NCBI RefSeq assembly: GCF_910592395.1
Contig: NC_088308.1
Coordinates: 19,669,501-19,733,500 of the forward strand
Length of the DNA: 64,000 bases
Source of the DNA: Lineus longissimus
Taxonomy: Eukaryota; Nemertea; Pilidiophora; Heteronemertea; Lineidae
Reading direction: 5' to 3'
Positions 13,601-49,000 of the stretch are shown in pieces. The position numbers and the translations under genes were made by a program. The notes beneath the pieces are model-generated. The model searched no databases. It had not been told where the DNA came from and saw only the letters and a list, made by a program, of their open reading frames with translations. The stretch's first letter is position 1; every line of letters begins with the position of its first letter.

Positions 13601-16600
13601 TGGTTCCGAACACTAAGTTGGTACTTCTTATTGACGTCAAATTATTTCTTTTACGGAGAAAGCTTCTTTGACATCTTTGGAGTAATAATGTCAAAACAGG
13701 TAACGCATTCTTACCAAAAACTTGGAAATATTGCCGACAATTTTTTCGCAGTTTTGGGACATAGCCAATTTTTAGTACTTGTGAGATCGCATTGCTTGAT
13801 ATAACCAATTTACACCACCTGCTTTTGATTCACGCGATATGCCGCAATTTTGAAAAAATCAATAGACTTATTAAATTTATCGCGTATCTTTGATTGATTC
13901 ATGAGTTCATCTGAGCTAAAATTAGACTGTCGGGTCGCTATGTCATTATGCAGTTATATAATGAGTGTGCCATATGCAGCAGAACAAACGACAAAGAATG
14001 GAATGTCCCCATGTACTGTTCGATCAAAGAAAACATACTATCATAGTTTCTGTCAGATTTACAACAAATTACATGATCAATTGTGAATTTCTGTTTCAGG
14101 CTATCCTGTCACCCTTTGTGACGTACCATCGGTTCATCTCATTCTGCCTCTACTGCGGTGGTGTGGTTGGCTTTGTTCTCAGTCTAGTGAAGAAACATTA
14201 CCTCAAGCAATTCACCCTGGTAAGTCATTTTAAAGGCCGATGTTGTTCGTTAAAAAATTTGAAATTTTGTACTTGAATTAGAAAATATCCAATTACATAA
14301 TACATGATATAAATTTCAGCATTGCCATTTTGTAGACAGATATTCAAATACTATTTAGAAATCCCAAGTTTCGGATCATAAAAATCTATGTACAGGATAT
14401 GTGGATGATATAAGGTGATTACAAGAGGTGATTGGTCTAGTTTGCCCTGCTGTCCACAGATGGCATGACTGTTCCCACAAGATGGCCATTATGCCACATT
14501 TATTAGAATTACAAGACTCATCTAGTTCTAATACACAAATAAATTGTTTCTGATTTACATTGTACAAAAACAGCTTTACTAAAAAACTCAATAATTTGTG
14601 AGCATTTTTTACGTGTACGGATAATCATATTGTTGGGTAAGGTTTGGCAGCAGTACATGAAGGAAAAAAATCAGCTTGTCTATTTACTAAACCAATCAAT
14701 TGATCAAAGGCTTGTTGATATGGTCTCCCTCTGCACAGATCTCTCTAAGATCATACTTTTAGGGATCATTTCTATAGTATGTATCGCCAGGACATCAGGT
14801 AAAACTGATCCTGGACAACAAACCACGATGATGAGTCAAAGTGGTCTCTCCTGAGCGTGAAGCAGGCTTTGGGTGCCGCCTTCGGGTGGCTGCCCTTGGT
14901 CATTGAGGATCGTTCCTTCTCCCTTATGGGGGAGTTGGAGGGAGAGATCACATTCAGAGTGGTTTGCCAACTTTTTAAGTAACAAAGAATAGAACTATCT
15001 AACTGCCAATACTCCTTTCACATTGTCCCTTAGACAACTCCTACCAAAGGATGTTTTGATGAGTGAGGATACTGAAAAGTATAATTGGATTGTCTTTGAT
15101 ACCCTTTCCTACTTTTTATGGCTTTTCTTGTTGCCCCTACTATACACCAATTTTGCTTTTGAATAAAGGTTGGGACACATCAAATTCTTTGGGCTGTCTC
15201 AGGCATTATTTAAAACCATGACTTGCCAATACTGATTTACCTTTTGTGTGATTTAATAGTTGTTGTTTTTTTTCAGTTCGGATGGACTCATGTGACGCTG
15301 TTGATTGTGGTCACCCAGTCGCATCTCATCATGGCAAATATTTTCACTGGACTCATATGGTAAGAAGAGATCAATGATAAACACTGGCCTGGCAGGGTTG
15401 TGAAAAGTTGGCAACAAAATGGCCTCAGATATTTCCCAGTTTACTGGATTGTTGTCCTGGCCTCCTAAAATATGTTTGTAATACCTAATTCTTTCAGGCG
15501 GTACCACCTTTTCAGCATGGGTGTCTCCAGGACCTTTGTGTCATCGAGTTTCTCTTAATCTTCATTGTGCAGGAACATTTTGACTCAAAGGGTTCCTCCC
15601 TCGTATTATGCCAGGGCTTGCAATGTCAAAGTCTTGGGGGTCAAAATGGGGGGTTGTCTCCCACAAATAATTTCATGTTGTACTTTAGATGGCCAGTTGT
15701 GTCCATCTTCTGCATTGTGTGATCTGTTCAATCATTCATTTCAGGTTCCTGGTGCCAGTTTCCATGATTATCTGCAATGACATCATGGCGTACCTGTTTG
15801 GCTTCTTCTTCGGAAAGACGCCTCTCATCAAACTCTCACCCAAGAAGACGTGGGAAGGATTCATCGGGGGAGCATTTTCGACTGTGTTATTTGGCATTGG
15901 AGTAAGTGAAATGCTTCTCAATATTCATGGAATCAACTTAACTATTCACTCCCATTCCTCAAAAACAGGTCCCAAATTTCTGATATGATGAAATGAAATT
16001 AATACATTTACTGTCCGATTCTACTCTGTGTGATCTTTTTCATTTCCAGCTGTCCTACTTCCTGGTACAGTTTGACTTCTTCATATGTCCCATTGAATAC
16101 TCTGAAAAGCTCGGCGAGCTCACCCTGGAGTGTGAGAGAAATCCAGTTTTCAAACTTGCAGCATACAAAGTTCCAGACGTCTTAGTAAGTATGCTGGTAC
16201 ACAACATTTCATGATTTAATCTTTTGTTTGTTTTGATTTAAGTTTATGTTTCTTTTATTCATTAACACTTGGCTTTTTCATTCAGTGATTTTGAGCCATA
16301 TTTCTGTTGCTGTAGCCCTTGGTGAAAGTAAGCTTATCAAAAAGCTTGACCCATTGCTCAACTGCCAAACCTTATACAATGTCCTGGACTAGAGGTATAT
16401 TTACCTATAATATCAGTGAGATTTTTAAGGAAACTGCCTAATTTGCATATTAGTGTGATCTGATAAATCACTTCAAATTCATTTTGAAGGCATAAGCTTC
16501 TGGCGTAAGATAAGTTCCCACCATCCATGCCACATGTACTCGTACCAACTAACTATATCATGTATAAAGTTGCATTTTGGTAGTTTTTTGTATTTTTTAA

Positions 16601-24484: not shown

Positions 24485-26986
24485 TTAAGATTCTTCATCA
24501 TCCAATTTGGGCGCCAGGTAGTATCGGATCTTGCCAAGGTGTTCGATATCCTCGATTTCGTATTCAGCAACTGAAAACGAAAAAATCTTGGAAAATTACT
24601 TATCAGTCAATTTTTTTGGCTGCAAGCTTTGATCTGCCAGTATGTTGGATCAACCATATCTGAAAAACATACATTAGTGTAATTGCTCAGACAAGATTAG
24701 CGTTGGAACAAGTTTTCTTCATCGCTCACTGAGCTCAAAGCGAGCTGGGTCTGTTGTCATCACTGCAACTACATCACAAGAATCATTTCACAAGACACTG
24801 AGGAAAACAAGTTCAGGGCATTTGACAACATCTCTGTTGAAACTTATCTTTCGGCGTTATCTCTCTCTAAGAGTGGGCAATGAATCAGGAAATCAACCTG
24901 ACGACACAGACAACAGAAATATACCTACCCAAAGGAATAGCTGGGGCCAAATTGAGCTTCACGCGAGATGAGAGTGGAGCAGCCTTGGAAAACATGGTGA
25001 GGAAGCGCAGGGAGAAGTTGAGGTTGACGGCCTCCTTCATGACAATTTCAACTGCGTCTTTCTCCTTTACATCCATATTGGCCGTCTGCTGGAGGGTGAC
25101 TTGTCCTGAAATCAAAATGATGTATTTGCTTAGTTCTCAATACCTTTTTACAATTGAATATTCAACTGGATATTATCACAAGAGCTGCAGGAAAAGTTTG
25201 TTGCTCAGAAGAAGGTTAGCGTTGGAACAAGTTTTCTTCATCACTCACTGAGCTCAAAGCGAGCTGGGTGTTTGTCATCACTGCAACTAACTTGACCATC
25301 AGTTTTTATCCTTGAATCATTCAAGCAATCCAGGAGTTCTTCATCCACTGGCTAGGGTGATCATTGTTCTCAAAGACAATGACTGTGCTATTACCTGTTC
25401 CAAGGTCTCCACTGCACGAAAATGTGATTCCATCCTTGGCACATGTGACGATGACGGTGTCCCCAATTTGTGACAGATCTCTGCAGATTCGTCCAAACTC
25501 GCCTGATGGCATTTTCACCGTACAGCTGTAGTCTTGATCCTGGAAATTAGATATAGAGTCAGTCTTGGGGGTTTCCCAGTGAGACATGCATCAAAAATCT
25601 TTAAAAGCTGCATATGACTGGCCATGTTTATGCTTTATTGTAGGTTTTCATTCACTACTTACTGGAATCCCTAAATGTTCCTGATCCAAATCGATCAATT
25701 TCATCTCATACTTGGAAATTTTGGTAATAACTGACTTGTCATCTGAAAATATGAAAATAAACATGTATCAACTCGATCAGTTTGAGATACAACAACAGCA
25801 TTGTTTGCGAAAGTAAATTACTGGGGCCAAGCACTAAACCCACTTGACTTGCACTTGCAGATACAAAAAATATGGATATCAACCTTTTACAAATGCCGCC
25901 CTGTGCACCGGACCAAGTTGACAGCAGCAAATACAGTGAACAAGTTCAAAACACTTCTCATGGTAGGAAAACCTAGATTTTACGAGTTTGTTTGGGCCTA
26001 GACCAGTCATGATTATCACCTGGAACAAAGGGTTGTCCTTACCGTCATTTGGTGAAGGAGATTCGAATATCAACATCAACGTGTCGCCACCATTTTCGTC
26101 TGCTCTGAATGTGATGGCGTCGTTTGCTCCGGCACATTTCAGAAGTTTTAATAAACTGAAAAGAACATCACAGAAGTTAGTAGATGGTTAGTAATTTGTC
26201 CCTACGCTTCTGCTTCATTGCTTGAATGAAGAAGTGTCTTTGTCAAGTTACAACGGTATGGGCGAACTTGCGGATTCCGCCTCTCCTCTAAAAAATAGGG
26301 ATTTGTCGCTATGAATTGTTAGGCTATACATAAGTAGTGAAACTGAAAAGCTACAAAATCCTTTTACAAATCACCCATCCGCTCGAACTGCACTGGTGCA
26401 GCGATCAAATAGATTATTTTGACGAACATTACATTCTTTGGCAGACTAGTCATACGTTACACGCGGAACAATGGGTTGTCACAGTGGCTTCTGCCGTTCA
26501 GGCACTATTCGTTGGTTTCGGCCTTCTAACGAGAAATGAGTTTCGACCACCAGGCATATGACAATCCGACACTGCGCATTTTGTTTGTTAGCGCTCTGGT
26601 TCGTCGTCGAAACGGTCCAGACCAGATGTTGTATGGCCGATGGGATCAGGTAATCGTGCGAATCAAATTTAAATAGGCTACATAAGAACATGATATTACA
26701 GGACGAATCACCCACTACCCCCACCAAGCAAGGCCTGCCGGGCAACGAAAACTTACTTCTCAACTTTTACGCCGAGGGCAATATTTCTATCACATCTGTA
26801 GCTGTTGTCTGCAAAACCCTCTTTGTGGAGTTCAAGGTGCACTAAGCAGATATGCGAACTATCCATACCCTGGAGTTTGATTCCATTGGAACTACAGTCA
26901 AATATGGCATTTTCTATAATGTCTTTGTTGACTGCCTCAACAATTTTCCTCCACATACTTCCATTCTCTAATTTTGCCTCAAACAT
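24485..26986 (-). CDS. PCNA: Proliferating cell nuclear antigen (PCNA), divergent copy
   Basis: The homotrimeric sliding clamp for DNA polymerases delta and epsilon and many repair partners. Six minus-strand exons: 26986-26757, 26155-26043, 25742-25663, 25539-25395, 25105-24929 and 24570-24485. All phases fit and give 276 aa, versus 261 in most animals. It starts [10 protein letters not shown] and has MDSSH and YRCDR. The interdomain connecting loop is [12 protein letters not shown] (about residues 128-140), followed by [16 protein letters not shown] and the CAKDG motif holding the conserved ubiquitin/SUMO lysine. It ends [12 protein letters not shown]. Oddities are a longer loop before the connecting loop ([11 protein letters not shown]), two extra residues before YRCDR, an [10 protein letters not shown] insertion near the C-terminus, and many changes at usually conserved sites. 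It may be a fast-evolving sole PCNA or a second paralogue. Introns 4 and 5 each hold a snoRNA-like sequence. An E2F site lies upstream. Confidence 0.95.
24683..24768 (-). ncRNA. Box C/D snoRNA-like RNA, copy A, in PCNA intron 5
   Basis: Read on the minus strand (PCNA sense): box C GTGATGA (24763-24757), a C'-like GCGATGA, and box D CTGA (24690-24687). TTGC before box C pairs with GCAA after box D. With flanking bases the stem is 8 bp (GUAGUUGC/GCAAUUAC, one G-U pair). It is 86 nt long with a near-identical copy in the next intron upstream. A segment with ACCCAGCTCGC followed by TTTGA looks like a guide next to a weak D' box. It complements GAGCTGGGT, which I recall from a conserved 3' region of large-subunit rRNA (from memory). 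Intronic, sense-oriented placement is typical of animal C/D snoRNAs. A target-based name cannot be given. Confidence 0.8.
25201..25286 (-). ncRNA. Box C/D snoRNA-like RNA, copy B, in PCNA intron 4
   Basis: A paralogue of copy A, about 520 bp away in the adjacent intron and in the same orientation. Minus strand: box C GTGATGA (25281-25275), a perfect C' box GTGATGA, box D CTGA (25208-25205), and terminal stem GTTGC/GCAAC. The ACCCAGCTCGC guide-like segment and the C and D boxes are identical to copy A. Bases just after box C and just before box D differ, as expected if the D'-side guide is the one under selection. Confidence 0.8.
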
Positions 26987-46072: not shown

Positions 46073-49000
46073 ATGAGCTTTCTTTTGTAAGTTGTCATTT
46101 TCTGAAGTACTGAAATAATTCCTTGTCTGGCACAGGAAAAAGGTGACTCACAAGTCATGTTTGTCTGCTCAGTCTCTGTCTGACTGACTGTCTGTGGCAA
46201 ATATGATGAGGAATCCAGAATTTACTGCATCACCTTTTATTATTATGCAATGATGATGATGCTTCCATGATGATGATGATGATGATGATTGATTGATCAT
46301 CCCATCACAACAGTTTCTTTCTTGTCATCCATCCATGTCGGAACGAGTTTACAATCCCCGATCACACCCCAAAAAAAGGTCATCGGTTGACTAACCCAGC
46401 ACCACTGTTCAATGGTTTTATAGTTGAATGCGATCAAACTACGTCATTTCCGATCGGGGATTCTAAAGTTTAGCCATCCATGTCATCATCGTTCATGTCA
46501 TGATCATGTATAACTTTATACTAATGTCTAATGTTGCGCGATATTGTATCACCACTTCTGTGTTGTATCGCCATTTACGTCGTGACGTTATTCCAATTAC
46601 AAAGTGGCGATACAACGCAGACTCTTCTCACGACATGGGTATGGCGATTGGATCATCTTTTTTTACAAACAATAGCCAATAGGCCTTTTCGATAAAGATG
46701 AATCAGGGCCAAAACAAATCAAATGCGCACACTCGGGACACGTTAAAAGGCCTAAGCTGACTTTGGACAATTCCAAAGCCACTGTAACCCTTTGTTTTAG
46801 GTGAAAGGCACAGCTGGTCAGCACCCAAACAAACTTCTTTGAAAAGGTTGATTGATACAAGGGAGTTTTTCTTGCCAACACATTTGAACTCGGTCTTGAA
46901 GAAGACAAAGGTCAAAGCGATGACTGTAGGCATTATTGGCCAGGGTGAAACCTATGTCCCTTTGACCTCTTAAAGTCCAGTTGTTTGGCAAAGGCATAAT
47001 TAGATGAGTAAGGTTATTTGGGCCAATTACACTAGATCTTGTAGCAGAGGTGTTAAACTAGTAAACAGGGATACATTTATGGAAATATTGTCTTCTTTTT
47101 CAGTGGAAGTCGAAATAACAAGACATTCAAGCCAAAGAAGAACATTCCTGAGGGTACTCACCAGTATGACTTGATGAAGCATGCCGCTGCCACTTTAGGC
47201 AGTGGCAATTTGCGGCTGGCAGTCCTGTTGCCAGAAGGGGAAGATCTAAATGAATGGGTTGCAGTCAACAGTAAGTGCTATTTTTGCTCCAATGTTATGT
47301 TCTCAGCATGGGGTGATGGAGGGCTGTCACCAAACCCTAAACTTCTGTCCATCCAGAGGAGAGTTTCAGGTAGTTGAGTCGCCTGAGAGCCAAAGGTAAG
47401 GAAGCAGGGAGATCTGAAGACGGAAGCCTTGTAGTGTGAAGACTGCAGCAACTATGATAGTGGTTAAAACCGCCTGGTTCATAACTCCCCACAGGAGTAT
47501 TCTTCAGGTTGTACAGTTCATTGTGGTAAAGAGAGTGGTTTAGTTCTCCCAAGTCGAGCTCATGGGAGTGAATTAATACAACTCTCGGGCTATTCAAATG
47601 TGAAGGCCTGGGGTCACCACACCACTGTAAATCTGTGTGTCCTTGAGCAAATCACGTGACCTGATTTGCTTCTCATCACTCATCTGAAGAGTAAATGGGT
47701 ACCTACATGAACTGGCATAGATGGCAAAATATGAATCCACATCATAAACTAACAGCAACACCATGCAATATTGGTCTAAAATGCACTTGCTGCTGATAGT
47801 GATATCATCACTTTTAGTAGTTTTAATACAGTGCACATGTTAGATAAACTTCATGGTGCATGTGATCTTGACTATTGATTAAACTATTGACATTTTGTCG
47901 TGTTTCTGCTCAGCACACTGGATGTATATGAGCTTTCGGTATTTTATTTGCAGTTCTTGAGTTCTTGGCCGACTGTAACCGGTAATATTAGCACTGTTAT
48001 TCATTTGACACCCACAGATAAAATCTGTCTGGGAAAGTTGCCAAGCAATGAATTGATATTCCCACTCCTAAACCTGGAGCCAGTTGAGTAAGTGGTGGGT
48101 TTTTATAAAATATTCAAACCAGCGTGCAATCAATATTCATAAATTATACTACCGGTTTAAGTCTGGTATACGAATACATGCATTTGTACCATTACCATAA
48201 ACCTTACATGGTTTTCTGGAATCTGAGCTTGGTTGAAAACTTCCGCAATGACTAAATCGAATGTACCGGTACCATGATGAGCATTTATAACGTAGTCAAC
48301 AGCTGAAGTTTAAACAAAATGTCCAGATTTGTACATGTATCCAGTTGCATCCTGACGATTAAAGTAACTTTGCTTGTCAACTTCTGTTATTTATCAAGGG
48401 CACTTAAACTGTCCCTGTGATTGAGATTGTGTGCCATTAAATCTGTGGTGTACTCCCACATGCTCAATTCCGAGCCTGGTTTATGTATCGGGTGCATTAT
48501 AACACTGTAGTACAATAATCAATATTTTGATATTGGTATTCGCTGCCACACGCCAGCCTCTGGGGCTTCTCTGATGGAAATTGATAGAGGATGATGTCAT
48601 TGCTGTAAAGAGACTGTGCAGTACAAGTGCACCGGTGGCCTAAGTTATGACCACAGGTTACTTTTCGCCTGTAAATAATGTTTCTTCTGATGTCACAAAA
48701 TAGCAGTACCCCGAATGCTCCTTCGAGGACTGTGAGATGATCACACGTATCTACTTTGAAGAAGTGTCCTGGAAATGAAAATTCTGCGATAAAAATATTA
48801 CTCTGTGTAGCATTTCAGATGTGAAAAATCCGTACTATCAGTATATCACTGATCCAGCTCCTGGTTCGGAAAAATGAAAGTTCCTGCCCAACTTCTCTGC
48901 TAAAACATACTTGCTCATTGTGTGTTCACGTTGTCTTTTCAGCTGTCGACTTCTTCAATCAAATCAACATGCTTTATGGGACAATTACCGAATTTTGTAC

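Follow-up and report, generated by a model that had tools for sequence, protein, structure and literature searches.

Putative SNORD29/snR71-like box C/D snoRNA genes in consecutive PCNA introns of Lineus longissimus, part of a seven-copy set on one contig

Introduction

Two near-identical 86-nt units lie one per intron on the sense strand of the PCNA gene of the nemertean Lineus longissimus, and they raise the question of what RNA they might encode, what that RNA would act on, and how the same unit came to occupy more than one intron. A first-pass annotation, made from the letters alone, had read them as a pair of box C/D snoRNA genes. This reading stands as far as the boxes, the intron position and the guide are concerned, and it has grown in scope, the pair having turned out to be part of a seven-copy set with a guide to the SNORD29/snR71 site. 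We consider it very probable that the two units, here called copy A (PCNA_A) and copy B (PCNA_B), are SNORD29/snR71-like intronic C/D guides and that they belong to a set copied or converted between introns. The RNA would be of a known kind, while its hosts (PCNA, a nucleolin-like gene and eIF4E) and its local spread are apparently new; no report of PCNA-hosted snoRNAs was found in the open-access literature, which is weak evidence of absence. Throughout, the window means the whole 64-kb stretch of DNA that was analysed.

The host gene and the anatomy of the two copies

PCNA is encoded on the minus strand of the window by six coding exons separated by GT-AG introns, and the gene model, without inner stops, gives a protein of 276 aa in which Pfam recognises PCNA_N (2.4e-40) and PCNA_C (2e-46). 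Among 120 listed of 3146 PCNA matches, the nemertean Tubulanus polymorphus (61%) is the first animal entry to carry a name, and it ranks after matches of 97, 92, 85 and 61-64% and a longer entry from Arabidopsis arenosa (50%). Both copies are placed on the PCNA sense strand inside such introns (Table 1), copy A at 112 nt and copy B at 95 nt from the 3' splice site, and coordinates and gene model agree with the first-pass description of one 86-nt unit per intron. Elsewhere in the window, a full-length U3 snoRNA gene (14747-14963, plus strand; 174.2 bits) is located ~10 kb from PCNA, and Maf bZIP and Mob1, among other genes recognised there, are without a copy of the unit.

Table 1. Positions in the window of the host gene, the two snoRNA-like copies and their elements
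Feature	Position	Strand	Basis or remark
Host gene PCNA	24485..26986	-	GT-AG gene model and Pfam
PCNA coding exons, first three in transcript order	26986-26757, 26155-26043, 25742-25663	-	gene model
PCNA coding exons, last three in transcript order	25539-25395, 25105-24929, 24570-24485	-	gene model
Copy A (PCNA_A), putative SNORD29-type box C/D snoRNA gene	24683..24768	-	PCNA intron 5 (24571-24928)
Copy A box C GTGATGA	24757..24763	-	sequence, C/D scan
Copy A guide ACCCAGCTCGC	24740..24750	-	28S duplex; two further pairs 5' of guide
Copy A box D' TTGA	24735..24738	-	28S pairing analysis
Copy A box C' GCGATGA	24719..24725	-	sequence
Copy A second element TCCAACGCT	24699..24707	-	possible accessory pairing to 28S AGCGUUGGA
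Copy A box D CTGA	24687..24690	-	C/D scan
Copy B (PCNA_B), putative SNORD29-type box C/D snoRNA gene	25201..25286	-	PCNA intron 4 (25106-25394)
Copy B box C GTGATGA	25275..25281	-	sequence, C/D scan
Copy B guide ACCCAGCTCGC	25259..25269	-	28S duplex
Copy B box D' TTGA	25254..25257	-	sequence
Copy B box C' GTGATGA	25238..25244	-	sequence
Copy B second element TCCAACGCT	25218..25226	-	pattern search, 28S pairing
Copy B box D CTGA	25205..25208	-	C/D scan

Copies A and B are identical in 81 of 87 aligned columns and have in common a 58-nt core, repeated at a spacing of 519. Two of the six differences stand just before the guide, one falls in C' and three lie in the last ten columns before box D; those near box C and box D had been noticed at first pass, and the C/T difference inside C', which the alignment brings out, had been missed. 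Both copies display the features of the box C/D class, namely boxes C and D joined by a terminal stem, together with internal C' and D' boxes, of which D' (TTGA) is weak. In copy B the stem has 5 bp (one pair past TTGC/GCAA), as previously given, and in copy A the stem search gives 9 bp with one G-U (five pairs past TTGC/GCAA) in place of the 8 bp with one G-U counted before.

A strict scan of both strands of the 64 kb (a perfect box C, CTGA as box D, 4 or more Watson-Crick terminal pairs, internal C'/D') picks out A and B and no others, and yields 0 matches in each of 10 first-order Markov resamples; scan and sequence together confirm the earlier assignment of boxes C, C' and D and of a terminal stem to each copy, and support the C/D snoRNA prediction itself. 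Looser criteria give 7 matches in the window, and the five additional ones mean little because the resamples give 0-5. A weak C/D candidate with one mismatch in box C and a 4-bp stem is seen near a Mob1 exon (48588-48690, plus strand), and similar candidates arise in the resamples. The 35-base pattern derived from the copies, with up to 3 mismatches allowed, is met twice in the window and 0 times in 100 shuffles.

The guide and its predicted target in 28S rRNA

The guide ACCCAGCUCGC of A and B is complementary to 28S GUGAGCUGGGU, the conserved segment toward which the first-pass annotation had pointed. On a 209-nt piece of human 28S printed in an excerpt of PMC12477938, which stands here for the animal's own 28S, copy A is predicted to form a 13-bp duplex (two G-U) with GUGAGCUGGGUUU at -23.2 kcal/mol and copy B an 11-bp duplex at -21.1 kcal/mol, and the proposed guide is thereby upheld. 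When only Watson-Crick pairs are counted, the guide (9) and a second element (9) are the sole runs of 8 or more between this 209-nt piece and A, B or NCL_1, a copy in the nucleolin-like gene; once G-U pairs are admitted as well, further runs of 11 and 12 bp link the copies to the piece.

The fifth base upstream of D' UUGA sits opposite the A of GUGAG in human 28S, and the A of GUGAGCUGGG is most likely the base whose 2'-O-methylation would be directed. A D' guide that pairs with 28S GUGAGCUGG and selects its A is a feature of SNORD29, and on human 28S it is found in both copies. The SNORD29 consensus guide falls on the same place in 28S as the guide of A and B, and we take the A of GUGAG, with this position of the consensus guide in support, to be the human Am4493/yeast Am2943 site. 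An excerpt of a published list assigns human Am4493 and Arabidopsis Am2936 to U29/RF00070 and yeast Am2943 to snR71 (PMC3511168). The same AGCGTTGGATTG is carried by an avian 28S probe that appears in an excerpt of PMC10864109, and the same GUGAGCUGGGUUU by an rDNA-like stretch at a contig start in the viral sequence collection.

The genome search for 28S did not find the animal's own gene and returned two degenerate 28S-like fragments, L035 (C16) and L036 (C1:5.718 Mb), the former of which has GCGAGCTGGGTT, matching the snoRNA guide perfectly. A single match, without the full upstream part, came from pattern scans for eukaryotic 28S, and the search for 5.8S gave none among the 39 of 9973 first-look candidates that were scored; the rDNA may be absent from the assembly, masked or skipped by the search.

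Relation to the SNORD29 family

For both copies the best Rfam model is SNORD29 (RF00070), with 31.8 bits for A and 29.3 bits for B, so that the family comes out on top in the Rfam comparison proposed at first pass and the gathering cut-off of 48 bits is not reached. Across the whole window, Rfam gives five matches at E <=2, in which A (E 0.024) and B (E 0.11) rank directly after the U3 gene. Second in rank for both copies are SNORD103/SNORD85 (23.5 and 23.4 bits; cut-off 45), and snoU30 scores 20.3 and 19.6 bits (cut-off 45); these families were set aside for their lower scores and for the lack of a shared guide by eye, the guide of SNORD103 being a different one.

A genome search with RF00070 at E <=10 returned 16 matches, in which six of the seven copies, including the best match, stand at E 0.035-0.20 and the copy EIF4E_2 is absent; 62 of 152596 first-look candidates were scored, and a diverged copy could be missed. 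Four of the 16 (L045-L048) were read in search of a separate SNORD29 elsewhere and show no complete guide plus boxes, and four others came without a locus. Two C/D RNAs on C11 with a different guide, AACTAGGACGGTC, also among the 16, score 30.8 and 29.8 bits with the SNORD29 model, as high as the PCNA copies, and in prokaryotic controls the model finds matches at E <=10 in 12 of 14 genomes, with 0 above the cut-off. The SNORD29 score alone therefore proves nothing, and membership is not claimed from it. It is the guide that carries the argument, and it argues strongly that A and B would function like SNORD29.

On C11 itself, four sub-threshold SNORD29-model matches lie close together (L038 and L042, about 11.406-11.410 Mb); both of the two that were read have the guide AACTAGGACGGTC, one of them also matches snoZ118, and they are probably a small C/D cluster.

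A seven-copy set in three clustered genes

A search of the genome (391,118,348 bases, 30 contigs) with copy A, in which all 7 of the 7 first-look candidates were scored, locates the unit in seven places, all on the minus strand of contig C1 between 19,694,179 and 19,887,042 (193 kb), a count to be taken as a lower bound, very common words having been skipped. PCNA hosts two copies, a nucleolin-like gene three (NCL_1-3) and eIF4E two (EIF4E_1 and EIF4E_2), and all seven are intronic and on the sense strand, at distances of 95-218 nt from the 3' splice site. A placement that is always sense and intronic would be the outcome of selection on a snoRNA that depends on splicing. The nucleolin-like gene is so named from its domain order of acidic stretches, three RRM stretches and a GAR-like repeat, of which Pfam shows the RRMs only, and the eIF4E gene carries the Pfam IF4E domain (7.7e-60). 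A profile built from the seven copies finds A and B and no others in the window, and gives 0 matches up to E 5 in 190.5 kb of additional C1 sequence, taken as 20 stretches from between the genes and from outside them; at gathering thresholds, below which the copies themselves fall, Rfam reports no RNA in the 134.1 kb that separate the window from the nucleolin piece. A SNOR75/SNORD15-like C/D snoRNA (L008:4502-4580, minus strand, C1; SNOR75 50.9 bits, cut-off 50) sits in a different intron of the nucleolin-like gene.

Five of the copies (PCNA_A, NCL_1-3 and EIF4E_1) agree with one another in 82-85 of 86 bases, PCNA_B agrees with these main five in 77-81 of 87, and EIF4E_2 with the other six in 73-76 of 87. 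Six of the seven carry the D' guide ACCCAGCTCGC unchanged. EIF4E_2 (L009:4957-5041, minus strand, C1), with its box D lost (TGGA) and changes in C' and the guide, looks like a decayed copy. PCNA_B and EIF4E_2 both lack one base and have C for G upstream of the guide, which suggests a second subfamily, and in PCNA and eIF4E alike this type occupies the upstream intron and the main type the downstream one.

Outside the unit, identity among the copies is about chance, at 0.21-0.34 per ten-base bin (0.30 and 0.34 in the bins adjoining the unit), and since the unit is alike in five copies and the flanks are near chance, its boundaries fit those of a mature RNA. Over the five flank positions nearest the unit, left and right flanks of one copy can pair in 25 of 35 cases, as against 20.3 on average when sides are permuted among copies; 201 of 10000 permutations reach the observed count, a weak sign that the terminal stem may be under selection; past the core, the stem extends without a break by one pair in PCNA_B and by none in NCL_3.

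Boundaries of this kind are also what could be expected if most copies were retroposed snoRNA pseudogenes and function had stayed with one or a few, possibly a nucleolin copy, and the state of EIF4E_2 fits such an origin too. Against it, no target-site duplication was found at the seven copies, both PCNA copies retain boxes, guide and stem, and confinement to 193 kb is unlike genome-wide retroposition. The longest direct repeat within 25 nt of the seven copies is 5 nt and no 3' A-tail is visible by eye, although six consecutive A stand ~15 nt downstream of NCL_1; both marks could have vanished from an old retroposed copy. We regard this explanation as improbable. As to mechanism, retroposition would account well for the sharp mature-RNA boundaries, and a local DNA process, or conversion among older copies, for the 193-kb extent and single strand.

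A possible second contact with 28S

Between C' and D, both PCNA copies have ~20 bases more than the SNORD29 consensus, and in the five other copies this length is the same within a base. The added stretch includes TCCAACGCT, which is predicted to form 9 Watson-Crick pairs with AGCGUUGGA of human 28S at -15.5 kcal/mol, at a site that lies 5' of the guide duplex at a distance of 23 nt. The element is kept in all copies but the decayed EIF4E_2, which has one change in it, an agreement that is not counted as conservation because the copies are too alike. When the 29-nt stretch is shuffled, 9 Watson-Crick pairs are reached in 50 of 5000 cases on the 209-nt piece and in 24 of 5000 on the 97 nt near the target, figures whose true significance is weaker, as both the stretch and the 28S piece were picked after the match had been noticed. 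Outside its guide, the SNORD29 consensus has Watson-Crick runs of at most 7 with the same 28S piece and no such 9-bp match. The complementarity of TCCAACGCT and AGCGUUGGA may, as a faint suggestion, represent an accessory pairing.

The insertion before box D, its length kept in all seven copies, could instead mean that the main target is some other RNA matched by the D-side sequence and not the SNORD29 site of 28S, for which the scan covered the 209-nt 28S piece. A guide next to box D was set aside because A and B do not share the final bases ahead of that box, and the D' guide with its long duplex is identical in six of seven copies; another main target appears quite improbable.

Origin and meaning of the set

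That the unit is a small transposable element or SINE with C/D-like boxes arising by chance is scarcely credible: near-identical copies with sharp ends and unlike flanks would be in keeping with it, but a dispersed, genome-wide family, the finding that the first-pass annotation had named as fatal to its own reading, did not emerge from the genome search, which gave seven places (a lower bound) in one 193-kb stretch, all intronic and sense to the host, with no profile match in the 190.5 kb of further C1 sequence and no direct repeat above 5 nt beside any copy.

We therefore return to intron-encoded box C/D snoRNA genes doing the work of SNORD29/snR71. Expressed and processed as we infer, each spliced-out PCNA intron would be trimmed to a snoRNP of ~86 nt, its D' guide would pair with 28S GUGAGCUGGGU, and the A of GUGAG would be 2'-O-methylated. 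The unit would have been copied, or kept alike by conversion, among the introns of PCNA, the nucleolin-like gene and eIF4E. A bolder version, in which short-range copying or conversion of the mature segment multiplied the guide in the introns of growth genes, tying 28S methylation capacity to proliferation, with the 9-bp match as an accessory clamp, is tentative and on the whole unlikely; the link to proliferation, the clamp and the copying mechanism are put forward as proposals.

If the preferred reading of the copies as SNORD29/snR71-like guides holds, PCNA and eIF4E would join the hosts of a deeply conserved snoRNA. The set would also be a clear-cut example of snoRNA mobility with readable copies, flanks, strand and hosts, and the sharp 86-nt ends in unlike introns within 193 kb mean that the rival routes from intron to intron, be they retroposition, conversion or local copying, can be tested in related species.

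Comparison with known systems

The closest known relative is SNORD29/U29 (RF00070, clan CL00051), with snR71. The copies resemble it in the D' guide to the same 28S segment with the same predicted A, in the TTGC...GCA(A) stem and in the order of the boxes, and they differ from it in being ~20 nt longer from C' to D, in staying below the Rfam cut-off and in their hosts, which in Lineus are PCNA, the nucleolin-like gene and eIF4E. In human, the host gene of U29 is UHG/SNHG1. The guide segment and, after C', a stretch containing AAAAC recur in the sn3060 (RF01153) and TtnuCD4 (RF02281, Tetrahymena) families, and the displayed portion of the sn3060 consensus can form 11 Watson-Crick pairs with the same 28S stretch. 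Both families have a shorter 3' half, and their best scores, 21.9 bits for sn3060 and 19.3 bits for TtnuCD4, stay below the respective cut-offs of 45 and 60.

For the second element, a parallel exists in the extra base-pairing of yeast C/D snoRNAs, which an excerpt of PMC5389607 describes for snR13, for example, while U18 showed no effect in the same paper's test; the likeness to snR13 lies in a second complementarity near the guide target, and the difference in that the Lineus element is known as a sequence match alone. The set as a whole can be compared to the intron-hopping snoRNAs, exemplified in an excerpt of PMC3511168 by primate SNORA58. What they have in common is a single snoRNA that occurs in the introns of several unrelated genes with broad expression; in Lineus, by contrast, a 193-kb part of a single contig holds all the hosts, and none of them carries fewer than two copies.
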